DNA of 64,000 bases, taken from contig CAKZLE010000020.1 of the NCBI GenBank assembly GCA_937125225.1, forward strand, positions 434,001-498,000. Direction: 5' to 3'. The stretch comes from an uncultured Spirochaetia bacterium. GTDB taxonomy: Bacteria > Spirochaetota > Spirochaetia > CAKZLE01. The translations under genes and the position numbers were made by a program. Of the stretch, positions 1 through 12,748 are shown one piece after another. The notes beneath the pieces are model-generated. The model saw only the letters and a list, made by a program, of their open reading frames with translations, was not told the DNA's origin and did not search any database. Within the stretch, counting starts at the first letter, position 1; each line of letters starts with the position of its first letter.

Positions 1-538
1 CTTCAGATCTTCTTATCGTGAAGAGTCTTCCGAGACTCAACGTCCCATACCGTGCCCCTTCAGTACAGAAGTATCTGCAGAAGGGTCTATCGATGATCGT
101 TGAGGCGAGAAGGAACAGCGCGAGCAAGATCCATGCTGTGACCGTAATAGATGTGGTCATACCCGAAAGGGAGCCCATGAAGGTCGCATAGGGGGAGCTG
201 AGTATCCCCAGAAATAGTAATCCTGCCATCCCTGCAGCCAAGAGTATATAACGCAGGAAGACGAGAAATCGTTCCACCTTCTCTGGGACTCTCAGTTTTC
301 TACCAAATACCTTGTTACCGGCTCTTCCAAGCCATTCCTGGACGAGACCGAAAGGACAGAGCCATCCACAGAACCAGGAGCCACTCAATAGCGCGATCGC
401 CATGAGTGCAATGGCAACGAAGAAGTCTTTGCCGACAAGGGCCGAGACCGTTGCTGCTAGATAGAGTAGTTGAAAGATGACTCGAAGTCCCCCATACCAG
501 GTTGGCTTCGTCTGAAAGAATCTCTTTTTCTGTCTCAT
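1..538 (-). CDS. 4Fe-4S membrane protein, NapH/YccM-like (C-terminus cut by window edge)
   Basis: The minus frame is open from an ATG at 538 to the window edge (179 codons). The protein starts with a short basic segment and has hydrophobic stretches at about residues 20-50, 85-115 and 125-145. The first cluster motif is WFCGWLCPFGLVQEW, the CxxxCP signature of NapH/NosR/YccM/CcoG membrane ferredoxins, and a second Cys pair (FCRYFC) lies near residue 158. Such proteins pass electrons between the membrane and periplasmic or cytoplasmic partners. It follows the riboswitch-led transporter operon but has its own promoter at 591-619, so it may belong to the next transcription unit. The family is clear; the redox partner is not visible. 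Confidence 0.8.
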   Translation of the reverse strand, partial: MRQKKRFFQTKPTWYGGLRVIFQLLYLAATVSALVGKDFFVAIALMAIALLSGSWFCGWLCPFGLVQEWLGRAGNKVFGRKLRVPEKVERFLVFLRYILLAAGMAGLLFLGILSSPYATFMGSLSGMTTSITVTAWILLALFLLASTIIDRPFCRYFCTEGARYGTLSLGRLFTIRRSE

Positions 539-590
539 ATGGTTCCTGCTTTATATCTAATCTAATTACTCATCTAATATACCATGAGTC

Positions 591-619
591 ATAATAAAAG
601 AGTGTAAAGAGAATGTAAA
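591..619 (-). promoter_or_regulatory. Predicted sigma-70 promoter for the 4Fe-4S membrane protein gene
   Basis: On the minus strand TTTACA (614-619) and TATTAT (591-596) are separated by exactly 17 bases and lie about 55 bases upstream of the ATG at 538. A weak AT-rich inverted repeat (AGATTAA/TTAATCT, 623-642) lies just upstream, after the permease stop codon. Together they suggest separate transcription of the downstream gene. Confidence 0.5.
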
Positions 620-657
620 CAGAGATTAATATTTCTTAATCTTGCAAGATGATAGCA

Positions 658-2685
658 TTAATAGGGTTGTGTTTCTTTGAGTTTATTCTCTCTCAATGGA
701 TTCCTGAATCGATAGAACAGCAGTACGATGATCAGGCAGTTGATGACTGAAGCTGCAGCAAAGAGGTTCCACTGGGGGAAGCCTGAGGCAAGATTTCCGA
801 CTAGGGAGAAGAGTTTGACACTGATCGGGAAGTTATGCTCGGTGTTGATGAACAACAGAGGTGCCATAAAACCATTCCAAGCTGCGATAAAAGCCAGGAG
901 CATATTCACTGCGATGATGGGGAGGCTTAGAGGGAGGAGTATCCTCCTGAAATAGGTCAGTGGGCGAATACCCTCTAACAGAGCCTGTTCTTCGAAAGAG
1001 GCAGGTATCTTCTCCATATAGGAAAGAGAGGTGAACAGGGCTGTGGGTATAGAATGGTTGAGGTAGATCAGGATCAAAGGGATATAGGAATCGATGAGGT
1101 GAAGGCGTCTGAAGAATGCATAGAGTGGGATCAGTGAATGCATCCCCCCGTAGAGTCCAATGATCTGCAGAAAGGTTAGGACGAAGAAGGCTGTCCTGTG
1201 ACCTTTATGGAGAAGACTAAAGGCGGAGGGCAGGATGATCAATGGTAGGAGAATTGCCGTAGCTGTTGAGAGCAGGAGGGTATTGAGGAAGTATCTGAGA
1301 ATATCCTCATCGACTATGATACGAATGAAATTCTCGTAGGTAGGGTATGGTGGGATGATCGAGTCGATATAACTGCTACCGAGACCTGATATACTCAACC
1401 AGATCAAAAGAAAGATGATCAGTGTTGCAGATAGGAGAAAGAGTAAGATCAGGAGTATCGTGATTGATTCATGAAGAAAGGTGACCCCCTTTGAGAGCTG
1501 TAGTCTTTCTCGCAAGGTGAGGAGTCTATCCCTCGTTGAACTTCTATTGGTTATTGAAGGATCGTTCAGCAGAATATAATAGATGAGCAGGGCGAAGAGG
1601 ATCGCGGGAGAGAAACCTTCGAGGAAACCGTATCGTTCGATCGAAAAGATTATCCAGATCGACTGCAATACCAAAATGAGCTTGTAGAGGGCTTTTGAGT
1701 ACAGGGCCGTGAGCCCGTACAGTGCTGCCCAAAGGATTCCTACTGGACCTGCGAAGACGATCTGGCTGATCCCGACAACAAAAGAGGGAGTGAAACCCTC
1801 GATCTTGCCTTTCCGAGAAAAGAACCAGATCAACATCATGGTGAAGACGACACCTGCAAGGATGACAGCATAGGCCGATGAGATACCGAGATCCTCCTGT
1901 GTCTGAAAGATCTCATAGATGAGTATGTCGAGAGTGGTTGTCGCTCCGATGATGAACTTATCGGTGATACCAGAGATCAAGGGTGGGCCACCTGAGGTCA
2001 TCAGATAGATCACATTGAACTCTTTCATGAACTTGATGAAGTTCAGGATACTCAAGACGGTGATCGTTCCTCCTATCTGAGGGAGATAGATCCTGTGGAG
2101 AATCTGTCTGTTATCTGCTCCATCAATGAGGGCGGCCTCTTTAAGATATCTTGAGATCTTACTGAAAGAACCAATGAGGATGAAGGTGGTGAAGGGGACT
2201 GACATCCAGATACTGACCCACAGGGTTGAGAGAAAGGATGCTATCGGGTCGTTAAGCAGGTTTATCTCTAGTCCTGTGAGTAGGGAGAATAGTGATATCC
2301 CCCCGTCTCCATGAAAGAACGATCTCCACAGGGGGACTGCGATATAGACCGGTATCCCCCAGGGGATAAGTAAGGCTATGAACAGGAGTCTTCTCTCTTT
2401 TCGTAGGGAACTCAGTTTCCAGGCAAGGAGCACCGATATACCAAGCCCCAGGGAGGTGTTTGCCGCAGCCCAGAGGAAACTAATATTCACGCTATAGGTA
2501 AATCCTTTATCAGAAAGTAGATAGCGATAATTATCGAGACCCGCAGGAGTACGGATCCCGAAGATGTCATGAAAGAATGAAGAGATCACAGCTTCTCCGA
2601 AGGGGGCTATCCCTGCGATCGCTACGATCATAGCCATGGGGAGGAGCAGCCACCAGCTCGTCAGGAATCTTGTAGGTCTCTTCAT
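658..2685 (-). CDS. Single-chain ABC importer permease (fused MalF- and MalG-type halves)
   Basis: At 675 residues this is about twice a normal sugar-type permease. The N-terminal half (about 1-300) looks like a MalF-type subunit with the cytoplasmic EAA loop reading EAALIDGADNRQILHRIYLP. Three or four extra membrane segments link it at about 300-370. The C-terminal half (about 400-670) looks like a MalG-type subunit with a second EAA loop, EEQALLEGIRPLTYFRRILLP. One polypeptide thus carries both docking loops for the ATPase dimer. It ends the operon 4105-5604, 2696-4066, 658-2685 and starts 10 bases after the lipoprotein stop. No ATPase gene is adjacent, so a shared ATPase is assumed. The substrate is unknown; the Moco-type riboswitch upstream suggests a link to molybdenum/tungsten cofactor status. 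Confidence 0.8.
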   Translation of the reverse strand: MKRPTRFLTSWWLLLPMAMIVAIAGIAPFGEAVISSFFHDIFGIRTPAGLDNYRYLLSDKGFTYSVNISFLWAAANTSLGLGISVLLAWKLSSLRKERRLLFIALLIPWGIPVYIAVPLWRSFFHGDGGISLFSLLTGLEINLLNDPIASFLSTLWVSIWMSVPFTTFILIGSFSKISRYLKEAALIDGADNRQILHRIYLPQIGGTITVLSILNFIKFMKEFNVIYLMTSGGPPLISGITDKFIIGATTTLDILIYEIFQTQEDLGISSAYAVILAGVVFTMMLIWFFSRKGKIEGFTPSFVVGISQIVFAGPVGILWAALYGLTALYSKALYKLILVLQSIWIIFSIERYGFLEGFSPAILFALLIYYILLNDPSITNRSSTRDRLLTLRERLQLSKGVTFLHESITILLILLFLLSATLIIFLLIWLSISGLGSSYIDSIIPPYPTYENFIRIIVDEDILRYFLNTLLLSTATAILLPLIILPSAFSLLHKGHRTAFFVLTFLQIIGLYGGMHSLIPLYAFFRRLHLIDSYIPLILIYLNHSIPTALFTSLSYMEKIPASFEEQALLEGIRPLTYFRRILLPLSLPIIAVNMLLAFIAAWNGFMAPLLFINTEHNFPISVKLFSLVGNLASGFPQWNLFAAASVINCLIIVLLFYRFRNPLRENKLKETQPY

Positions 2686-2695
2686 CTGTCTTTCA

Positions 2696-4066
2696 CTATT
2701 CTATGATCATCCTGCTCACATTCCTTACGGCCTTGATGCCTTCAGGAATCATGAGCGCATCCTGGTCCCAGGCGATGACTAGTGGCTGTTCTCGTTCCGA
2801 GAGTTCGCCTCCATCACCATAGTACATTGCAAGGATGACATCAGTGTTTCCCTCTAACTGTTCGGCAGCTAGGGTGATCGAGAAGCCATCTGCAGCCTCT
2901 ATGGTCACACTCTTATATTCCGGATAATGGCTGAACAGTTCATAGAGGGGGATTCCCATATACTCGATGACTGTATCACTCTTCGAATGGTAGTAGCCTA
3001 CGACACTCTTATGGGTCGTCACTCCACTTTGGATAGTCTGTCTATCGAGGATCTCTGATCCATCAACACTCTCTAAAGTAAGAGTGAAATCCTTGAAAGA
3101 AACATCTTCGATGAAGACCTTCTTGATCATCTTCGCAGATATATGACCGGTTATCTGTGGGTTCTTAGGGCCGACTTTCACCAGTCTCATATATCCGGGG
3201 TCCTCTGGCATATACTCCCCATCTTCGATGAAGGCAAGGATCCAGGTACCATCTGCCTGATCGAGTAGCTGTTGTCCACTATAATCCATCTCATACCCAT
3301 CGGTTGATACTATAGTGACTGTCTGATCTGCAGTCAATGCAATCGTATCTCCGATCAGATCGACTAACTTCACTCCACCCCAGATATGCGAGAAGATGAT
3401 ATCATGCGAGTTCTTGTATTCACCGGTATCTTCGATATAATGAGGATGGGCCTGTAACTCTGCCAGGGTATAGACACTCCTGAGGTCCCCGATCTCAAGG
3501 ATGAATTCGAATCCGTTCTCTTCAAGGACTACCGGGGCAAGAGATAGTTCGATAGTCGTAAGTTCTTTGATCCAGAACTGTCCACCAATCTCTCCGATGA
3601 TCATCGGAGGAGTCTTCTCTCCATCTTGGGACAAGGCGATATATATATCCTCAGAGTCAAATTCTGCTGTATCGAAGGTCGCCGCATAGCCATCAGCAGA
3701 ATTTAGCGTGATATCATATCCACTATCCCATAACTCCTTATCGAAGGTGTAGGGCATGGAGCCGTCAGCATCATCACAGATCGCGATGATAGCAGAGAGG
3801 GGAATAGCCTCATATATTCTGGTCTCTCCCTTCTTCTCAAAGGAAAACTCTCTAAGCATGTCCGGATTGTATTCGATCCACGCATCGATATCTGATTCAT
3901 AGATCTCATCAGACCTGACACCTGTCAAGGTTATCATCCATCCTACACCCTCCGGTGTCGCCTGAGATACCGCATCTACGGTATTCTGTCTCTCTAGACT
4001 GGTACAACTTGAGAGTATGACCAGTGCAATTACTGCTGCTATGAGCATCCATCGCCTATTGTGCAT
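2696..4066 (-). CDS. Lipoprotein with three molybdopterin-oxidoreductase-fold-like repeats
   Basis: The first 21 residues form a lipoprotein signal peptide ending at the lipobox LSSC (Cys21). The remaining 435 residues show three copies of a pattern in which a hydrophobic 'G(V/I)xLxxLx' strand is followed by a 'DGYxxxF/Y' or 'DGFxITL' strand, an 'ILAxxxxGE' turn and a closing 'IxxIxI' strand (roughly 40-180, 190-320 and 325-455). The best copy, the second, contains GGVKLVDLIG, STDGYEMDYS, ILAFIEDGEYM and a YMRLV strand. In known families this resembles the sulfite-oxidase-type molybdopterin-binding fold in forms without the cofactor Cys. It probably sits on the outside of the inner membrane with the solute-binding protein. 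Function is unproven. Confidence 0.65.
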   Translation of the reverse strand: MHNRRWMLIAAVIALVILSSCTSLERQNTVDAVSQATPEGVGWMITLTGVRSDEIYESDIDAWIEYNPDMLREFSFEKKGETRIYEAIPLSAIIAICDDADGSMPYTFDKELWDSGYDITLNSADGYAATFDTAEFDSEDIYIALSQDGEKTPPMIIGEIGGQFWIKELTTIELSLAPVVLEENGFEFILEIGDLRSVYTLAELQAHPHYIEDTGEYKNSHDIIFSHIWGGVKLVDLIGDTIALTADQTVTIVSTDGYEMDYSGQQLLDQADGTWILAFIEDGEYMPEDPGYMRLVKVGPKNPQITGHISAKMIKKVFIEDVSFKDFTLTLESVDGSEILDRQTIQSGVTTHKSVVGYYHSKSDTVIEYMGIPLYELFSHYPEYKSVTIEAADGFSITLAAEQLEGNTDVILAMYYGDGGELSEREQPLVIAWDQDALMIPEGIKAVRNVSRMIIE

Positions 4067-4104: not shown

Positions 4105-5604
4105 TCATTGATCTGATGAGGCCTGTTCCAAAAGTCTTTCTCCCTGCTTGAGAACTTCCTCAGTCTTCATCTGTCCTGAGAGTGCGAATCTCAGCAACTT
4201 CCACATGATATTCTTATAGGCCGTATAGGCGCTATCAGAGGGTATAACCTTCCCCTGTTCTGTCTGCTTCAGCATCACCTCATAATAGGGCGTGCTGCTT
4301 TCAAGTGCTTTCGAGGAAAAACTGTTTGCCGGTAGTTTATATAGCTCTTTGGAGAATCGATACTGTACATCGAGTCCTGTGAGATAGGATAGAAGGCGGT
4401 AGGCGAGTATCGGGTGGCTCGAATGATGAGTGATCCCGAAGGCTTTGAAGTCGAGCATAGGAGACAGCGGAGTGCTCGTGGCATCATTGATGATCACCGG
4501 TGCGATCTCATAGGGGATTCCAAGCTTCTGGAAATAGGGGATCGAATAGGATGCTGAGTAGATCATAGCTGAACGACCTGAACTGAAGAGTGAGATCATG
4601 GCATCCTTCTCTGTTGGTCGGAAATAGTCTTTCTGATTCAGTTCTACAATATAGTCCAATGCTCTCTTTGTAGGTTCATCGAAGACTGAGATATCTCTAT
4701 TATCTTCGAAGAGTGATTCTTTACCGAAACTGTATTCGAAGGGTAACAGCCAGAATACTGAATAGGCGTTCCAGGTCAATGGAAGGGCGACCTCTGAGCT
4801 CAATTGTGCTGCTAGGGTCTCAAGCTCTGTTAACGTGATCGAATCATGGGAGCTCAGATCGATCAGCTCTGGATTATAAAAGAAAAGCTGAGAATCGCAA
4901 TAGAACGGGAGAGCCCACTGTTTTTCCTGAAGAGAGAAGGCCTGAACCCCTCTCTGATCCAGATCGATCGTGAGTGATTGAGGTAACGGCTGCAGGGCTT
5001 TCGCCTCGACAAGGGAATGGAGCTTACCAGGAGAACTCATGATGATATCTGGAGCACTACCACCTCCCCGTACCACTGAGATCAATCTTGACTCAGGATT
5101 CGGTATATTGAGTACGGTGATATCTATTGCATGGTTTTTACCAAAACGTAGGATCTCCTCTCTCAGCTCATCGGTACCTTCCCAACTGATCCAGATCTCC
5201 AGTTGGTCATCGGCGAGTATCTCACCACTGACATCGATAGAGCCCACATCAGTGAAGATCTGATAGCCTGGGATAAAAAGAGCCAGTTCGGGATCTGAGG
5301 TTAGTAGATAGGAGTGTTCCAAAGTATCTTCAAGGGTCTCGATGCGAAGTGGGATCCCATCGATATTGATCTCCCAAGCCTCGAAGAACAGGGGGAGAAG
5401 TTGGGATAGTACGATTCCCTTCTCCTGTCTGTCACCAGTCAGTTCTTGCGGGAGGGGATAGGACAACTCTGTCAGAACATCGTCTGAGAAGGTCTCAGGC
5501 TGCTTTTGGTTCACTGACACCTCAAGTGCTGAGAGGGATGTTATCCCGATAAAAGAGATCAATATACAGGTGATACTCAAAGAGATCCTTCGTAATGTAA
5601 TCAT
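4105..5604 (-). CDS. Solute-binding protein with an extra N-terminal domain, riboswitch-controlled
   Basis: A signal peptide covers about residues 1-27 (hydrophobic core, ending near SLSALE). Residues about 28-135 form an extra domain (GIVLSQLLPLFFEAWEINID segment) that resembles the repeats in the next gene. Residues about 140-499 are a family-1 (MalE-like) binding protein: ISWEGTDELREEILRFG at the start, APDIIMSSPG, and a late YRLLSYLTG segment. I place the start at the ATG at 5604, which has the Shine-Dalgarno AAGGAAG five to six bases upstream. A GTG at 5622 would extend the frame but lies inside the conserved 3' part of the riboswitch. This is the first gene of an operon with the lipoprotein and fused permease. 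Ligand unknown. Confidence 0.75.
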   Translation of the reverse strand: MITLRRISLSITCILISFIGITSLSALEVSVNQKQPETFSDDVLTELSYPLPQELTGDRQEKGIVLSQLLPLFFEAWEINIDGIPLRIETLEDTLEHSYLLTSDPELALFIPGYQIFTDVGSIDVSGEILADDQLEIWISWEGTDELREEILRFGKNHAIDITVLNIPNPESRLISVVRGGGSAPDIIMSSPGKLHSLVEAKALQPLPQSLTIDLDQRGVQAFSLQEKQWALPFYCDSQLFFYNPELIDLSSHDSITLTELETLAAQLSSEVALPLTWNAYSVFWLLPFEYSFGKESLFEDNRDISVFDEPTKRALDYIVELNQKDYFRPTEKDAMISLFSSGRSAMIYSASYSIPYFQKLGIPYEIAPVIINDATSTPLSPMLDFKAFGITHHSSHPILAYRLLSYLTGLDVQYRFSKELYKLPANSFSSKALESSTPYYEVMLKQTEQGKVIPSDSAYTAYKNIMWKLLRFALSGQMKTEEVLKQGERLLEQASSDQ

Positions 5605-5708
5605 CGCTTCCTTTCCAAACACGGGAAGGGTACCAGTTTCCCAGGTAACCTCTATCGGTCACCATCCATAGCGTGTGCCTTAGGAGTAACTGACTCGGAA
5701 GTTTCTTT
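5605..5708 (-). promoter_or_regulatory. Moco (molybdenum cofactor) riboswitch-like leader RNA
   Basis: Read on the minus strand the leader begins CTTCCGAGTCAGTTACTCC and ends TCCCGTGTTTGGAAAGGAAG, directly before the ATG at 5604. This matches from memory the layout of the Moco RNA motif before E. coli moaA, whose 3' end reads CUCCCGUAUCUGGAAAGGUG. Seen pairings: the outer stem CTTCC/GGAAG, an arm CTAT...ATAG, and an arm GGTTACC...GGTACC with the loop TGGGAAACT. The closing strand GGAAAGGAAG contains the Shine-Dalgarno of the first gene, so folding would hide it and control translation. The motif family senses Moco or its tungsten form. Confidence 0.82.
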
Positions 5709-5716
5709 TCTTCTAC

Positions 5717-5745
5717 AGTGTAGTGTAAGAGTCAGGTATTGGCAA
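5717..5745 (-). promoter_or_regulatory. Predicted promoter of the riboswitch-controlled transporter operon
   Basis: On the minus strand TTGCCA (5740-5745) and TACACT (5717-5722) are 17 bases apart. Transcription starting about 7 bases later would begin at the 5' edge of the Moco-like leader, which fits the riboswitch call. Confidence 0.5.
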
Positions 5746-5905: not shown

Positions 5906-6511
5906 ATGAAAGCAGAAGAACCAGTGCATAAGATCTTTGATTCTATCCCTGGATTAGTCAGGTATGAGCGAATGACTAGAGACCTTCTCGAAGAGGCCTC
6001 CCAGCGAGAGTTTGAGAAGGGGAAGGATCCAAAGAATATCATCTCCTTCTATAATCAGGGAATCAAAGATGCTCTTGAGATGGATCATATCTATATCATT
6101 CTCAAGAATCGTTCCTTCAGATTGCCAGACCGACCGACCTTCTTCCTCGTAGAGCAGGTCAAGAGTGTTGATGAGCAGTTCGAGCATACGACTATCGACG
6201 GGGCTCCCTATAGGATCATCGGGGAAGAGTACCTTGCCCATCTAAATAAGCCAGAGCCTAAGAAACTTCTCTTGGGGGTCATCAGGTATGAAAAAGAGAA
6301 AAGAGAGAGTAACAAGAATCCGGTTTTGATCCTGTTGCCCTCATTACCTTTCAGGGAACTCGAGCTCTATAAAGAATCCCTTGGGATCGACACCATTCAA
6401 TCAGTGTCTCCCTCTTTCGAGACAGATCTATTCATTCGAGAAGAGCTGGGTTTTGAGGTAAGCCCCGACCTTGCGACTTTGATCATCTCTTTCAATGATA
6501 TAAAGGGTTGA
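5906..6511 (+). CDS. Hypothetical cytoplasmic protein, 201 aa
   Basis: I do not recognise a family. The start ATG has a good ribosome site (AGGAG, six bases upstream). The protein is charged, has no signal peptide or membrane segment and no cysteine or obvious catalytic motif. The N-terminal third is helix-rich and acidic/basic (RDLLEEASQREFEKGKDP), the middle is beta-like (IYIILKNRSF, TFFLVEQVKS), and the C-terminus contains PVLILLPSLP and ATLIISFND. It is divergent from the riboswitch operon with about 300 bases between the starts and stands alone, with the mannosidase gene converging on it. It could be a small regulator or a phage-independent orphan; no function is claimed. Confidence 0.7.
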   Translation: MKAEEPVHKIFDSIPGLVRYERMTRDLLEEASQREFEKGKDPKNIISFYNQGIKDALEMDHIYIILKNRSFRLPDRPTFFLVEQVKSVDEQFEHTTIDGAPYRIIGEEYLAHLNKPEPKKLLLGVIRYEKEKRESNKNPVLILLPSLPFRELELYKESLGIDTIQSVSPSFETDLFIREELGFEVSPDLATLIISFNDIKG

Positions 6512-6630: not shown

Positions 6631-9441
6631 CTATTTCTGTATATAGTCGTGAATACGCCTCTGAACTCGAGCTTCATTCAACTGATAACCGAGAGCTCTG
6701 ATAGACTCTTCATGTTTTCGGTTCTTGGTGAGGATCTCTGAGAGTTGAGCCTCTAACGCCGTTCTTCTGTAGAGGGGGTCATCTAGCTTGTCTCTCATAC
6801 TGTCTGCCCGTCTACCTTCATCCTCGATATCCTGAAGAGTCACATAATCGGTATAGGGGAACTGTGAGAAATCTTCTTTGATCACAGCATCCTCTAAAAT
6901 GATCTCTTCTCGTTCACATACGGTAGCAACAGGTCTATTCACGTTCAGTCTGATCGTGAATATCCTTTTTCCTGGTATCTCGAGTGCTATGTCATGAGCA
7001 TCGACTGTGAGATCACTTTCATATTTCTCCCTCAAGTTGTTCATCTCTGCTGAGATGATATCCAATGATGTCCTAAGAACTGCTGAAGTCATCTCCGTTG
7101 AGGTGTTAACTCCTCTGATGATCAGACTCTTACCATCCTCGGATCGCTTACATGCAGTGAGTCTCACGCTGTTGCGATCGTCAGAGATATTGAACCAGGA
7201 GTGGCTACCCGGTAGGACTCCCGCAGAGGGTTTGGTCGATACCGCGATCAATTCATTGTTGAAGGAATCTGCCTTCTGGACGACTCCTGAGTGGGCATCT
7301 CCCGTATGAGGACATACAGCATATTCGAAGGTCATCTCCCTGAGACATTGAGCATCAGGAGTGTAGATCTCAGGACCGGCATCACCGATTCTGGTATTGA
7401 TCTCCTTTGCGATCCAACCGACAGACCTGAAGAGGGTGACTGCGATCGTATCATCCTCGATGATCTGGTATTCAGGGAGCCCCTTGGTAAATACTGCAAG
7501 GCCCTCCTTCTCATCATTCATATCAATGAAGCCGTTGTTATGGAAATAGGTAGAGGGTTTTGCCTCTCTAGCTCCCACGATGACCTTGCTCACATAGTCT
7601 GGAATCTCTGATTCATTATAATCTGCGATATGGATCGGTCTTTCGGTGATATCGAAAGGTGATGAGGCCCAAGAACTCTCAGTGGTGATACCGGTAGGGA
7701 AGAGGACTCTCATCCTGTGATCCTTTACGGTATTTCTCAAAGAGGTCTTACAGGTCACTACCGGTGAGTCTGCTGTGATTGTTATATAATTGGTGACTGG
7801 TACGTTAAGTAGCTCTTCAGACCTCTGGGTATGGCCTTCACAGTCTGAAACGGGCAGATTCATCGTATAGAAGACTTTATAGATGATCTGGTAATCTGAC
7901 TGGGAGTAGATCTCTACTACCGCATCAGTTGCTTCTGAAGTGTATCTTCTATCTACATCGGGGTAGGAGTAGTTATACTCATCTCCGGAATCTCCGGTAT
8001 CTTCGATCAATCCTAGATTCGCATAACTCTTCCCGGTAGCCTTATCAGTCACCGTGAAGGTACCATTAGTTGCAATCGTCACACCGATCAGATCATTCTC
8101 GACCTGTAGTCCATTCACCTTGAGAGATGATTCTGGAGTATCTTCTTCAGTGACGACCCTATATCCCATTGCGGGGATCTCTTTGACATAATAGCTCTTT
8201 TCAGCAGCATAGATGACCTCTGATCTGCTGTAAGGTGCAGTATTGAAGACGATGAGTGCCTCATCTCCAACAATATTCGAGGTATCTATGATACCTGCGA
8301 GCTCTGATGCTGAGTATTCCAATACCGCAGAACCCATAGCAAAGACCTCTCTACCTCGGTTCTCCATATCGGAATGGACATCATCGATACTGACTCCACA
8401 GATGCTGTCATGAGGATGATTCTTCAAGAGAGTCTTCCATGCGAGTGCTATCTGAGGTTGATCGTAGGAGAGTCCACTGAGCCAAGAGAGGGCTGAAAGA
8501 GGTTCTACCTTCTTCTCAAGGAGTCTCTGCATCCTATCATTCTGCTGTTTTAGATAGATTCGAGCAGACATGACACCCGGGAAGACAGAGATGAAACGGC
8601 CATTGTACAGGGGACCCTTCAGTGTTTGTAACTCGGGACTCTCAGCTTTGATAGCTGCGATATAACTGTCGGGGTCTGTCTGGATCGTGGTGAAATCATC
8701 ACCATTGAGCTCTCCATTCTGTATATATGGTTGGATATCATCAGGTACCATCTCCTGGTCATAACCATTCATCATGAGCACATTGGAGGTAGTGGCAAAC
8801 GGTTTGAGCTTGTCAACTTCCGTCTTCATTCGATCATGCATGATGGACTTGTATTCAGCAAGTCTCATGACATTTCGATAGCTGTTGAGAAGGTAGACTG
8901 AGGTCATCTTGGTACCATCTGGTGCCTCCCAGATGAACTCTGAGGTCACATTCTCAGGATCCATGGCAACACCTCTCCAAACGAAGAGTCCTGTCATACC
9001 GCTCTGGGCATGGATCTGTGCTGTTTGGGATATCTGGCCGAAGTTATCCAAGAGCCATCCCGACTCCATACTTCCACCAAGAGCATCTGCTAGAGAGGTG
9101 CCGATCATGATATTCCTTACCAGTGATTCCGCACTGATGAGTTGCCAATCCGGTTGAAGGTAATAGGGGCCAATGGAAAGAGAGTTGCTCTTCACATATT
9201 TTTTAATAGTCCTCTTTGCCTTTGCTACGGACATATCGTTCTTCGACAACTCTTCGAAGTAGTCTTCGATCATCGATAGTTGTCCATCGAGTACGAATTT
9301 GTAATCCGGTTCTTTCTCGATCATAGCAAATAGTCCATCGAAGAAGGGGATGAGCCACTCGTTCGTGTAGGGACTGTTCAAGTACCATTCCCGATCCCAG
9401 TGTGTATGGGATATGATATGGGCGGTATACTGTTTCGACAT
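6631..9441 (-). CDS. Alpha-mannosidase, glycoside hydrolase family 38
   Basis: The 936-residue protein has the GH38 hallmarks. The N-terminal zinc-binding motif HTHWDREW is at residues 12-19. The nucleophile motif is LDNFGQ with Asp132 (PDSFGH in many relatives). The later signature is KNHPHDSICGVSIDDVH near residue 350. The C-terminal half is the usual beta-sandwich region. There is no signal peptide, so it acts in the cytoplasm on imported alpha-mannosides, releasing mannose. It starts from AGGAGT-ATCCC-ATG and follows the ABC importer (9507-12748), separated by a hairpin at 9481-9500 that probably lets part of the transcripts through. The LacI regulator at 12931 probably controls the whole set. 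Bond specificity cannot be read from sequence. Confidence 0.92.
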   Translation of the reverse strand: MSKQYTAHIISHTHWDREWYLNSPYTNEWLIPFFDGLFAMIEKEPDYKFVLDGQLSMIEDYFEELSKNDMSVAKAKRTIKKYVKSNSLSIGPYYLQPDWQLISAESLVRNIMIGTSLADALGGSMESGWLLDNFGQISQTAQIHAQSGMTGLFVWRGVAMDPENVTSEFIWEAPDGTKMTSVYLLNSYRNVMRLAEYKSIMHDRMKTEVDKLKPFATTSNVLMMNGYDQEMVPDDIQPYIQNGELNGDDFTTIQTDPDSYIAAIKAESPELQTLKGPLYNGRFISVFPGVMSARIYLKQQNDRMQRLLEKKVEPLSALSWLSGLSYDQPQIALAWKTLLKNHPHDSICGVSIDDVHSDMENRGREVFAMGSAVLEYSASELAGIIDTSNIVGDEALIVFNTAPYSRSEVIYAAEKSYYVKEIPAMGYRVVTEEDTPESSLKVNGLQVENDLIGVTIATNGTFTVTDKATGKSYANLGLIEDTGDSGDEYNYSYPDVDRRYTSEATDAVVEIYSQSDYQIIYKVFYTMNLPVSDCEGHTQRSEELLNVPVTNYITITADSPVVTCKTSLRNTVKDHRMRVLFPTGITTESSWASSPFDITERPIHIADYNESEIPDYVSKVIVGAREAKPSTYFHNNGFIDMNDEKEGLAVFTKGLPEYQIIEDDTIAVTLFRSVGWIAKEINTRIGDAGPEIYTPDAQCLREMTFEYAVCPHTGDAHSGVVQKADSFNNELIAVSTKPSAGVLPGSHSWFNISDDRNSVRLTACKRSEDGKSLIIRGVNTSTEMTSAVLRTSLDIISAEMNNLREKYESDLTVDAHDIALEIPGKRIFTIRLNVNRPVATVCEREEIILEDAVIKEDFSQFPYTDYVTLQDIEDEGRRADSMRDKLDDPLYRRTALEAQLSEILTKNRKHEESIRALGYQLNEARVQRRIHDYIQK

Positions 9442-9506: not shown

Positions 9507-10460
9507 TTAACCCTTTACTCCACCGTCTGATAGACCGGAGACCATGTTCTTCGACAACATGAAGAAGAAGATGATCACTGGTGCCAGGGTCAACGTAGAG
9601 GCAGCCATGATCCTTGCCCAGATACTATTCTTCGAATAGAACAATGCCTGGATCGCAACAGATAACGTCCTCATATCATTGAAGGGTTTCAAGAATACTG
9701 AAGCATACAGATACTCATTCCATGCGATGATGAAACAGTATACGAATACGGTGATCAATACCGGTCGAGAGAGCGGTACGATGATCTTCAAGATGATTCG
9801 GACTCTACCGTAACCATCTATCAATGCAGCCTCTTCGATTGACTTCGGGATTCCTCTGAAATAGTTACCTAACATATAGAGGGCCAAAGGCAGGGTCTGC
9901 ATGATATAGATCATGATCATATAGATAAAGACTCCGGCTGGGGTCTTGGTGAATCCAAGTGAATTTCCCATCTGATAGAGTGGTACCATGAGTACTACTC
10001 CACCAAGGAGATAGACGAACAACGTTCCTCGCCTGAGGATGTTACCACCTCTGAACTCCATCTTCGCTATGGCATAGGCACTGAATACGGCCAGGGTCAT
10101 AGAGAACATAGTCGCTGTTATCGAAAGAAGGAACGAGTTGAGCATATAGCGCATGAAGGGGAAGGGATTCTTGTTCTCATACTTCTCCATGAGCAGGGTT
10201 CTCTGCTCTTCTGAGAGGTTAGGGTTATCAAGGATAGCCTTGACCGCAGCATTCTGTGTTGCTTCGATCGGTTTGAGCCCCAGGAGTTCCTTATAGGCAT
10301 CAAGACTCGGGTTTTCCGGGATCAAGGATGGGGAGGCCATATCCTGTACATCTTTCAATGATACTGAGATGATCTGCATGAATGGGAACAGACAGAATAA
10401 TACTATACCGATGACTGCTAGTGCGAAGAGCACTTTTCCTAATATGTTTTTTGCTACCAT
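9507..10460 (-). CDS. ABC sugar importer permease, MalG type
   Basis: I place the start at the ATG at 10460 (MVAKNILGKVL), which has AGAAGG about seven bases upstream and overlaps the preceding permease gene by 7 bases. The open frame continues upstream, but that part copies the neighbour's DNA. The 317-residue protein has an N-terminal membrane helix (about 8-30) and a periplasmic insert of about 70 residues rich in Asn/Glu before helix 2. It ends with the binding-protein-dependent transport domain carrying the EAA loop EEAALIDGYGRVRIILKIIVP. It pairs with the MalF-type protein and the binding protein in the same operon to import a mannoside or related oligosaccharide. No ATPase gene accompanies it. 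Confidence 0.88.
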   Translation of the reverse strand: MVAKNILGKVLFALAVIGIVLFCLFPFMQIISVSLKDVQDMASPSLIPENPSLDAYKELLGLKPIEATQNAAVKAILDNPNLSEEQRTLLMEKYENKNPFPFMRYMLNSFLLSITATMFSMTLAVFSAYAIAKMEFRGGNILRRGTLFVYLLGGVVLMVPLYQMGNSLGFTKTPAGVFIYMIMIYIMQTLPLALYMLGNYFRGIPKSIEEAALIDGYGRVRIILKIIVPLSRPVLITVFVYCFIIAWNEYLYASVFLKPFNDMRTLSVAIQALFYSKNSIWARIMAASTLTLAPVIIFFFMLSKNMVSGLSDGGVKG

Positions 10461-11323
10461 TTTAGTACCTTCTTGATATAATAGACGATTCCGATTCCTG
10501 CTAATAGCAGTTGAATCAGTGCTGCAGAACATGCAAGTCCCTGATCGATGACTCCGGAGAATGCTTGCTCGTAGGTGAAGACTGATAAGGTCTTGATCTG
10601 TGGGGAGAGCAGATAGATATCTTCGAATCGGTTCAGGTTCCATATGAGTCTGAGAAGAATAGTCGTTCCCAGTACGAACTCGATCTCAGGAAGTGTGATG
10701 TGCCAGAAGCAAGCCCATTTTCCGGCTCCCTCTATTGATGCAGCTTCATACATCGACTTGTCGATGAGCTGTAATCTAGAAAGGAGCAGGAGATAGGTGA
10801 TCGGGAAGTATTTCCAAGTGGTGAATGCTATGAGCACCCACATGACTGAATCAGGATCACCGATCAGGTTCGTATCAGGACTGATAAGATGCAGAGTGTC
10901 TGCAAATACGAAATTGAATATTCCGTTGACTGGATCGAAGATGAACTGCCATCCGAACACCATCGAGATCACTGGTGCGAAGTAGGGAAGTATGATCAAC
11001 GTTCTTACCAGAGAACGTAACGGGAACTTTTGATTCATCAGCAGGGCAGTTCCTAGTCCAAGTAATGTGGACCCGGCAACTGAACCTACTAAGAATATGA
11101 ATGTTGTCCAGATAGAAGCATAGTAGTTCGGGTTGGTAAGAAGATTCTTATAATTACCTAAACCGATGAATGTCTTACTCCCATCTAAACGAACTTCAAA
11201 GAAACTCAAGAAAAGATTGAGGAAGGTAGGGTATGCAATAAGAATACCTATCACAAGAACCGCTGGGGCAACTAAACCCCATGCAAGCCTTTCCTCTTTT
11301 CTAGCTGCTAACCCTATAGCCAT
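10454..11323 (-). CDS. ABC sugar importer permease, MalF/UgpA type
   Basis: The 289-residue protein has about six membrane segments; the first is at about residues 13-38 (GLVAPAVLVIGILIAYPTFL). The EAA loop is EAASIEGAGKWACFWHITLP. This is the standard length for the smaller MalF-like subunits that lack the large periplasmic loop. It starts 25 bases after the binding-protein stop and overlaps the MalG-type gene by 7 bases, consistent with translational coupling. Together they form the heterodimeric channel of a sugar importer. The substrate is inferred from the downstream GH38 mannosidase. Confidence 0.88.
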   Translation of the reverse strand: MAIGLAARKEERLAWGLVAPAVLVIGILIAYPTFLNLFLSFFEVRLDGSKTFIGLGNYKNLLTNPNYYASIWTTFIFLVGSVAGSTLLGLGTALLMNQKFPLRSLVRTLIILPYFAPVISMVFGWQFIFDPVNGIFNFVFADTLHLISPDTNLIGDPDSVMWVLIAFTTWKYFPITYLLLLSRLQLIDKSMYEAASIEGAGKWACFWHITLPEIEFVLGTTILLRLIWNLNRFEDIYLLSPQIKTLSVFTYEQAFSGVIDQGLACSAALIQLLLAGIGIVYYIKKVLKW

Positions 11324-11347
11324 ATCCTCAATCCTCCTCTCGTATGA

Positions 11348-12748
11348 TTAGTTTTCTAAAAGTCTCTTGATCTCTTTCTCAAGATTAGCGATCTCATCGT
11401 CGATGTCTTTGTCTTCGATAGTCACGTTATAGAGCATCTGACCAACAAGGTTCTTTGCAAGGATCGAAGCTGATTCTGGGAAGAGGCTCTCACCAGTCTT
11501 CAGGAAGTCCTGCATAGCACCGAGTCCACCAGCGATCTCATTGATCTTAGCTTTACCATAGTTAGCATATACACCCTTAGGGTCATTGATGAACTGGTCG
11601 CTTTCGATGACTGAAGTCTTCATAGCGAGCATTCCACCAGGTGCGACGTGCAGGTATGGGATATAGTTCTCATCTGACAGGAAGAACTCAGCAAGTCTCT
11701 GTGTTGCTGCAGTCTTTGCTGCATCTTCTGATTTCAGGACGCTCAAAGTCATGATCTCACCGTAACCTGATGATTCAGTGTTAGAGATCAGTGGTACGAA
11801 TGCAGTGTTCTTTACGAGGTTTGAGTCGAATGTCCCACCACCAAGGTCAGAGAAGTTCTCTGAGGTAAGTGATGATGCTGCGACTTCTGCTAGAGAGAGG
11901 TCATCCATGATATATGTTGAGTAATAGAACATTGCCATCTTTCCCTGAATGTAGTAATCACGTGCTCTCCAAGTCTGTGGTCCTGGAGGAGTGAATTCTG
12001 ATAGAGCTTTGTAGTATTCAACAGCTTCTTTGAATTCAGGTGATGTAACTGCAAGGTTACCCTCTGCATCGAAAAGGTGTGCATCATTAGCTGTCGCTAA
12101 GTGAGTGAATGTCTGCTGTGTATAGTTCTCAGGTTTTGTACCGATGAGGATACCATACTGTTTGTTTGCTGGATCATTGAAGTACTCAGCAGCCTTTAGG
12201 ATGTTCTCCCAAGTGTTTGGCGCTTCAAGTCCTGCTTCTTCGAACCAGTCCGTTCTGTACCAGATTCCCTGTGCTGCAAAATGGAAAGGAACACCGAAGT
12301 AGCTTCCATCACCCATCTGTACGTTGTTCAGTGATCCTGGGAAGAAACTATCAGCTCCAACTGAGTTGATGATGGCTTTGTTAGCAGAAGAATCAACGAT
12401 ATTATCTACATTATAGCTCATTGCATAGAATGCTGAGGTCTCGATGAGGTTAGGTCTGTTTGCCTTTCCTGCAGCTGCAAGCTGAGTTGAGAACTCATTG
12501 TCTTCTACTGGGAGCATGGTAACCTTGATATCGGGATTGAGTAGTTGGAATACATCAAGTAAAACCTGAATCTGTTCCTGTCTCTCACTCTGAGTCTGTC
12601 GTGTCCAAAACTGGATCTCTACTGGTTCTGCTGGTGTTGCTACTTCTGGTGCAGCCTCTACTGCTTCCTGCTGTCCACCTGCGAATACGTTACTGAAACT
12701 GGTAAGTAACAGTAATGCAACTACTAGAAGGGTAATGCCTTTCTTCAT
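11348..12748 (-). CDS. Extracellular sugar-binding protein, family 1
   Basis: The N-terminus is a signal peptide (MKKGITLLVVALLLLTSFSNVFA) followed by GGQQEA, the Gly-Gly-x-Glu junction common on spirochaete binding proteins. A Pro/Ala/Glu-rich linker follows to about residue 42. The mature protein has the family-1 pattern: IQFWTRQTQSERQEQIQ, RPNLIETSAFY, YFGVPFHFAAQGIWYRTDWF and a C-terminal helical region. It is first in the operon with the two permeases and the mannosidase, read from a promoter at 12814-12842 with LacI-type operators. A mannose-containing glycan is the likely ligand, by context only. Confidence 0.88.
   Translation of the reverse strand: MKKGITLLVVALLLLTSFSNVFAGGQQEAVEAAPEVATPAEPVEIQFWTRQTQSERQEQIQVLLDVFQLLNPDIKVTMLPVEDNEFSTQLAAAGKANRPNLIETSAFYAMSYNVDNIVDSSANKAIINSVGADSFFPGSLNNVQMGDGSYFGVPFHFAAQGIWYRTDWFEEAGLEAPNTWENILKAAEYFNDPANKQYGILIGTKPENYTQQTFTHLATANDAHLFDAEGNLAVTSPEFKEAVEYYKALSEFTPPGPQTWRARDYYIQGKMAMFYYSTYIMDDLSLAEVAASSLTSENFSDLGGGTFDSNLVKNTAFVPLISNTESSGYGEIMTLSVLKSEDAAKTAATQRLAEFFLSDENYIPYLHVAPGGMLAMKTSVIESDQFINDPKGVYANYGKAKINEIAGGLGAMQDFLKTGESLFPESASILAKNLVGQMLYNVTIEDKDIDDEIANLEKEIKRLLEN

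Follow-up and report, generated by a model that had tools for sequence, protein, structure and literature searches.

A Moco riboswitch leads a conserved MalE/MalFG-type importer in spirochaetes, a candidate uptake system for the molybdenum or tungsten cofactor

According to the description by Regulski et al. 2008 (PMC2408646), riboswitches of the class RF01055 are held to sense the molybdenum cofactor (Moco) rather than its precursors. The targets named there are moa operons, modABC, molybdenum or tungsten enzymes and other Moco genes; translational control is reported for the E. coli moa riboswitch, and a subtype lacking stem P3 is linked to the tungsten cofactor (Tuco). Here we describe a member of this class that leads an ATP-binding cassette (ABC) importer of the MalE-MalFG kind together with a lipoprotein of sulfite oxidase (SUOX) fold. 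The locus lies in a stretch of 64,000 nucleotides, hereafter the window, from an uncultured Spirochaetia bacterium (GenBank assembly GCA_937125225.1, contig CAKZLE010000020.1, positions 434,001 to 498,000 of the forward strand), and the operon is read from the minus strand. We call the combination of Moco riboswitch, extracytoplasmic substrate-binding protein (SBP), lipoprotein and fused MalF-MalG permease the cassette. We consider it probable that the operon is a riboswitch-repressed ABC importer of metal-loaded Moco, or of its tungsten form, which feeds Moco-auxotrophic spirochaetes.

The initial annotation of the window had placed a Moco-type riboswitch at 5605-5708. This segment falls inside a full-length RF01055 match at 5592-5712 (minus strand, model positions 1-135, E 1.3e-11), whose 59 bits against a cut-off of 36 rule out a chance motif. 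It is the sole Rfam match reaching its gathering score in the 64-kb window and, in a whole-genome covariance search, the single RF01055 match of the host genome (3.43 Mb in 36 contigs, 97.26% complete, 4.52% contaminated). The positions that form stem P3 in the Moco-type subclass are gapped in the window's alignment, and inspection by eye of the 16 aligned cassette leaders (of 18) revealed no P3 either. For this P3-less RNA, known as a subtype of the class, Moco or Tuco is the predicted ligand.

The closing stem P1 pairs CTTCC (5' strand, 5701-5697) with GGAAG. The latter is part of GGAAAGGAAG (5607-5616, minus strand), which comprises both the P1 3' strand and the Shine-Dalgarno sequence of the first gene, just ahead of its ATG at 5604. 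Since the two coincide, closure of P1 upon ligand binding would mask the Shine-Dalgarno sequence, as had been proposed. The position of the Shine-Dalgarno sequence also places the start of the gene at this ATG and not at an in-frame GTG at 5622. No terminator-like site was found in the leader stretch, which fits translational control. The promoter claimed in the initial annotation is correctly positioned (TTGCCA-17-TACACT, 5717-5745, minus strand), but we rate it as weak: it agrees with 9 of 12 sigma-70 consensus bases, and chance alone would give 0.8 sites of this quality in the stretch, where two occur.

The association of this riboswitch with the importer is conserved among spirochaetes. 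When one genome per species, from 84,980 species, was scanned with three aligned SBPs using two peptide patterns, 15 loci emerged, all in metagenome-assembled genomes (MAGs) of spirochaetes. For 14 of them an RF01055 match above cut-off sits immediately ahead of the SBP gene in the same orientation; in the fifteenth (L045; loci and genomes bear L and G numbers) the contig starts inside the SBP gene, so that the riboswitch is untestable. Among 392 genomes sampled from the phylum, five match the SBP alignment at E <= 1e-30 (the window's own, G322, G349, G371 and G374), and each of the five has an RF01055 match directly ahead of the SBP gene. With G371 and L046 (G405), which by length and match represent the same contig, counted once, there are 19 distinct loci. 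The operon thus recurs in other spirochaetes, 19 genomes possessing the cassette with the window's own included, and the riboswitch stands directly upstream in all 18 testable loci.

The order of the cassette is equally constant. Wherever the contig suffices, the lipoprotein gene follows the SBP gene (17 of 17 loci) and the permease gene comes next (15 of 15). Of the 16 loci inspected, 15, the window's own among them, have a start codon 2 to 10 bases past a conserved G(G/A)AAAGG; the exception, L034, has no ATG, GTG or TTG in this interval, and a CTG start is suspected. For P1, 97 of 118 cells pair across 17 of the 18 leaders; G374 is omitted from this count, its core lying outside the search pattern used. 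Although the SBP is MalE-like in fold, a plain sugar importer was rejected as an explanation, because the riboswitch stays with the SBP at every testable locus.

The SBP (499 residues, 4105-5604, minus strand) matches PF13416 with E 6.8e-20, and its best NCBIfam model is MalE, under the cut-off. Its AlphaFold2 model (predicted local distance difference test, pLDDT, 90.3) adopts the maltose-binding MBP/MalE fold, with Foldseek TM-scores by target of 0.86 to 2gha_B and 0.83 to 3puy_E. Beyond the MalE fold it has an additional N-terminal region (about residues 25-130), for which profile comparison with a SUOX-like domain gave a probability of 50.7 over 18 columns only, and an SWEG motif is invariant in the family. 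No ModA-, TupA- or WtpA-type profile occurs among the SBP's matches to E 1. The permease (675 residues, 658-2685, minus strand) contains two BPD_transp_1 stretches (PF00528), the MalF model scoring best on residues 44-286 and the MalG model on 461-658 (both below cut-offs), and the fusion is found in relatives too. The importer is indeed, as annotated, of MalE/MalFG type and not ModA-like. Both permease halves and the SBP fold are shared with the CUT1-type MalE-MalF-MalG system, from which the cassette differs in the fusion of MalF with MalG, the N-terminal addition and SWEG motif of the SBP, the lipoprotein, the Moco riboswitch and the lack of an ATPase gene in the operon. In related loci no same-strand ATPase gene was seen by eye after the permease, and in L042 ABC ATPase genes adjoin the cassette permease on the opposite strand. 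For the window this negative result concerns the operon; a shared ATPase elsewhere in the genome was not searched for.

Between these two genes lies that of the lipoprotein (456 residues, 2696-4066, minus strand; a weak match to PF00174, molybdopterin-binding oxidoreductase, E 8.5e-7), whose predicted model contains domains of the sulfite-oxidase/PruR fold, in keeping with the molybdopterin-fold resemblance originally noted. In this AlphaFold2 model (pLDDT 81.7), residues 327-456 superpose on PruR 7kom with Z 15.9 (root-mean-square deviation, rmsd, 2.4; 125 aligned residues) and residues 181-322 on PruR 7kp2 with Z 15.7 (rmsd 2.6, 133 aligned); chicken sulfite oxidase 3hbg is matched with Z 14.9 (rmsd 2.8, 138 aligned). 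The order of the domains is uncertain at a predicted TM-score (pTM) of 0.41. Across 14 aligned lipoproteins no cysteine is invariant or nearly invariant, so the protein is hardly an enzyme of the sulfite oxidase family, and an enzymatic SUOX role, which would require the molybdenum-ligating cysteine, was rejected. The published account of PruR (PMC13259868; PDB 7KOM, 7KP2, 7RKB) presents it as a pterin-binding protein of the periplasm in which this cysteine is likewise missing. The modelled domain fold, the export and the missing cysteine are thus common to both, whereas the lipoprotein is multi-domain and belongs to a transport operon and PruR is the partner of a c-di-GMP enzyme. On the strength of the models, the domains are candidates for pterin binding. 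In Syntrophomonas wolfei two P3-lacking RNAs are reported ahead of putative sulphite oxidases (PMC2408646), and these proteins may be relatives of the cassette lipoprotein rather than enzymes.

Gene content was searched in 17 cassette genomes and 14 control genomes. MoaA (PF06463, three matches above cut-off), MoaC (PF01967) and MoeA (PF03453) were each detected in five cassette genomes, the same five every time (G349, G392, G393, G396, G401), while each search was positive in 11 of the 14 controls. By these profile searches all three are absent from the other 12 of 17, the window's own genome (97% complete) included. Nevertheless PF01568, the dinucleotide-binding domain of bis-molybdopterin guanine dinucleotide (bis-MGD) enzymes, is present in 13 of the 17, among them 10 of the 12 Moa-minus genomes. 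The window's own genome holds PF00384 and PF01568 and lacks PF06463, PF01967 and PF03453; it thereby shows the pattern of a Moco auxotroph with an orphan molybdoprotein, as described in PMC6147048.

All ten Moa-minus genomes with PF01568 also have MobA-like matches of 62-118 bits, every one under the curated cut-off (G400 has one of 35.4 bits, G399 none). The MobA-like proteins from G397, G403, G406 and the window's genome score best with MobA or MobA/MobB models. In G397 three consecutive genes encode formate dehydrogenase (TIGR01591, 866.8 bits against a cut-off of 666.25), MobA and FdhD, and in G403 and G406 a formate dehydrogenase above cut-off is followed by a MobA-domain protein. The molybdoenzyme of the window's genome is a DmsA/YnfE-like protein of 686 residues with relatives of 40-46% identity in G402, G404 and G398; a PF02592 transporter gene adjoins it both here and in G402, which argues against contamination. 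Loss of MoaA, MoaC and MoeA with retention of MobA would leave molybdenum- or tungsten-loaded molybdopterin, Mo(W)-MPT, as the missing compound. This is the very species taken to be the ligand of the riboswitch in E. coli, on the ground that repression there is reported to be independent of MobA (PMC2408646).

These data also bear on what else might be imported. Uptake of molybdate or tungstate, with a MalE-type protein in place of ModABC or TupABC, has precedent in modABC operons under Moco riboswitch control (PMC2408646). Among 27 non-cassette riboswitch loci, ten with recognisable first genes were picked for profiling; they comprise two MoaA, one MoeA, two AOR-like and one formate dehydrogenase gene and four for TupA-like proteins (L008, L009, L022, L030), most of the ten below curated cut-offs and the four TupA-like ones all so. 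The evidence argues against metal oxyanion uptake, which we judge very unlikely: an oxyanion would be useless by the known route to the 12 hosts without MoaA, MoaC and MoeA, and the SBP is MalE in both profile and fold. ModABC, TupABC and WtpABC are ABC importers as well, but employ another class of SBP, and the cassette occurs in hosts to which the known route of Moco synthesis is closed. Moreover, G349 holds TupABC-like genes together with MoeA, MoaA (short, 277 residues, with a weak C-terminal domain) and MoaC behind another Moco riboswitch (L053, G349:C1:94000-110000), in a unit that includes a MOSC and a MoCF_biosynth protein. The cassette is therefore not the sole source of tungsten there.

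MalE-type SBPs mostly bind sugars or other organic compounds. This speaks for uptake of an organic compound, for example a sulfoxide or a glycan, that is a substrate or product of a Moco enzyme and whose import would be switched along with the cofactor supply; Moco riboswitches do control Moco enzymes. It is nonetheless highly improbable. The enzymes vary between cassette genomes (DmsA/YnfE-like in the window's own and G398, formate dehydrogenase in G397, G403 and G406), whereas cassette and switch are constant, even in the two Moa-minus genomes without a PF01568 match. Repression by the cofactor would, besides, stop uptake of the substrate just when the enzyme is active.

How closely the cassette follows the loss of Moco synthesis was examined across the phylum sample, in which 145 of 392 genomes have MoaC and 142 have PF01568. 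The class contributes 31 genomes with PF01568, 26 of them with MoaC. Among PF01568 genomes, MoaC is missing from 10 of 15 with the cassette and from 3 of 26 others of the class (p = 0.00047), a pooled value that mixes two samplings, the genomes from the SBP scan and the phylum sample. In the SBP tree, which leaves out G406/L047 as too short, the moa label requires five changes, at least three of them forced by starred branches. Its clustering over the 18 rows is no stronger than in shuffles (155 and 166 of 500 as low for the two groups). It seems that moa genes and cassette have separated repeatedly, in the manner of salvage systems that are essential to some hosts and supplementary in others.

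The riboswitch-bearing genomes give a further comparison. In the phylum sample, searched with stricter filters that lose weak matches, 54 genomes carry RF01055, and 42 of these reach a completeness of 90% or more with contamination of 5% or less. MoaC is present in 39 of the 42; the three without it are the window's own, G371 and G231. Each of the three has one RF01055 match, and in each it leads an ABC importer. Three further riboswitch-bearing genomes without MoaC (G162, G216, G225) are under 90% complete.

Several points weigh against import of the finished cofactor. MoaC is present in 7 of the 19 cassette genomes (G349, G392, G393, G396, G401, G322, G374), so the cassette is not strictly tied to auxotrophy. 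Neither moa genes nor PF01568, and hence no use of Moco, were found in G399 and G400. Three MoaC-less PF01568 genomes of the class (G231, G330, G365) do not have the cassette. Taken by itself, the evenly drawn phylum sample shows no significant link, MoaC being missing from 2 of 5 genomes with the cassette against 3 of 26 without (p = 0.17). The MobA-like model is unspecific, all 14 controls being positive. Most cassette genomes are MAGs, 15 of the 17 (G392-G406) come with no completeness figure (G405 shares its contig with G371, which is 95% complete), and the moa genes are clustered, so that one assembly gap could remove all three. Moco is labile in air. The operon has no ATPase gene of its own, and the pocket of PruR is described as probably too small for Moco (PMC13259868).

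The moa genes might accordingly have escaped detection through gaps in the MAGs or through sequence divergence, the cassette having some other Moco-linked role such as handling of the cofactor in the periplasm. Besides the clustering and the missing completeness figures, the MoaA C-terminal domains that were found are weak (27.7-40 bits). Divergence is an unlikely cause, since in the five positive genomes MoaC and MoeA reach 106.8-186 bits, and the window's own genome, G371 and G231 (99% complete) are without MoaC in spite of their completeness. We regard this explanation as quite unlikely.

The main rival is a pterin, by virtue of the likeness of the lipoprotein to PruR: the cassette might import a precursor or breakdown product (metal-free molybdopterin, cyclic pyranopterin monophosphate or another pterin) that is completed by the cell. 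The nearest single-domain structures of the lipoprotein are those of PruR, a binder of small pterins, and the size of its pocket counts in favour of such a ligand. Metal-free molybdopterin, on the other hand, could not be finished by the known route in the 12 genomes that lack MoeA, the protein of metal insertion, as well; nor would a precursor agree with the ligand that the riboswitch is held to sense (PMC2408646). Part of the pathway may still exist in these hosts, as the searches covered MoaA, MoaC and MoeA. A pterin cargo thus appears unlikely, if less so than the other alternatives. The initial annotation had suggested that a new system takes up or salvages Moco, a pterin or a molybdenum or tungsten complex; as a prediction, this is supported by the covariance match, the constant association of switch and cassette, the missing moa genes, the PF01568 enzymes of most Moa-minus genomes and the PruR match.

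For import of the metal-loaded cofactor we infer cargo, direction, ATPase and order of steps as follows. The lipoprotein, with its PruR/SUOX-type domains, would capture or shield the pyranopterin outside the membrane and the MalE-fold SBP would then receive it. The fused MalF-MalG permease would move it inward, powered by an ATPase common to other importers. Inside the cell MobA would attach guanosine monophosphate, and the finished cofactor would pass to a cytosolic enzyme of the DMSO-reductase family or to formate dehydrogenase. At high intracellular Moco levels the leader would bind the cofactor, P1 would close over the Shine-Dalgarno sequence and translation of the importer would stop.

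A second kind of importer appears in G231, where MoaC was not found. Its Moco riboswitch (RF01055, L123, G231:C65:72000-84733, 10188-10320, minus strand), which has a P3-like hairpin, precedes the gene of a FecCD permease (297.1 bits, with BtuC as the nearest NCBIfam model, below cut-off), followed by genes for an ATPase, a binding protein of family PF01497, an NTPase of family PF03266 and an FMN reductase. A mobA gene is divergent from this importer and the end of a PF01568 enzyme gene lies within 11 kb. Judged from sequence, the FecCD/BtuC-type system is a possible second class of Moco importer. Like BtuCDF-type systems, it would represent riboswitch-linked uptake of a finished cofactor, here in a MoaC-less genome; the importer of the window is of MalEFG type and does not belong to the FecCD permease family. 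The importers led by the only Moco switch found in the window's genome, G371 and G231 are thus of two unrelated kinds. A PF03266 NTPase is encoded both behind the cassette in G396 (L037, 7091-7594) and behind the FecCD-type importer in G231 (L123, 6679-7212), and may act on the imported cofactor. Taken together, and with slightly less confidence than in the window operon itself, we still favour a wider reading: a dedicated, self-repressed importer of the mature molybdenum or tungsten cofactor would let spirochaetes without moaA, moaC and moeA run bis-MGD enzymes on the cofactor of others, and in another spirochaete without MoaC at least one unrelated importer, of BtuC type, would have come by convergence under the control of this riboswitch class.

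Some neighbouring genes were left out of the cassette. A NapH-type 4Fe-4S membrane protein (1-538, minus strand), running past the window edge, and after it an FMN-binding protein are encoded downstream in the window's own operon alone; tblastn against 15 related loci, of which some are short, gave no match up to E 1e-3. A redox role for these two proteins in keeping the cofactor in its reduced state is conceivable (window 1-538; L002, 13398-14538). Divergent from the operon is a gene for 201 residues (5906-6511, plus strand) with no Pfam or NCBIfam match to E 1. At 9507-12748 lies a second importer of MalEFG type, with no ATPase gene in that stretch, adjoined by a 936-residue glycoside hydrolase of family 38 (6631-9441).

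We know of no bacterial Moco transporter, and the open-access literature on transport, uptake or auxotrophy for Moco, as far as it was searched, showed no bacterial importer of it. As far as that literature shows, target and role are new, riboswitch class and importer superfamily being known. The categories of RNA-controlled coenzyme uptake given in PMC3766115 are B12, thiamin, riboflavin, queuosine and folate, Moco not being among those named; 'molybdenum cofactor transporters' are mentioned in passing for a fungal genome (PMC13315312). Work on C. elegans indicates that Moco passes between organisms and raises membrane crossing as a question (PMC9793310), and Moco cross-feeding to anammox bacteria has been suggested from gene content, no transporter being given in that account (PMC10116762). 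In a 2018 survey of almost 5900 organisms, several hundred had a partial molybdenum trait, mostly molybdoproteins without a complete Moco pathway, for which new pathway parts or molybdenum-independent forms were offered as explanations (PMC6147048). Import of Moco would be one testable answer to how such orphan molybdoproteins are supplied, and an importer marked by a riboswitch makes the question of Moco uptake directly testable. If the prediction is true, Moco would be an exchanged 'vitamin' in anoxic communities and would join the cofactors that microbial communities share.

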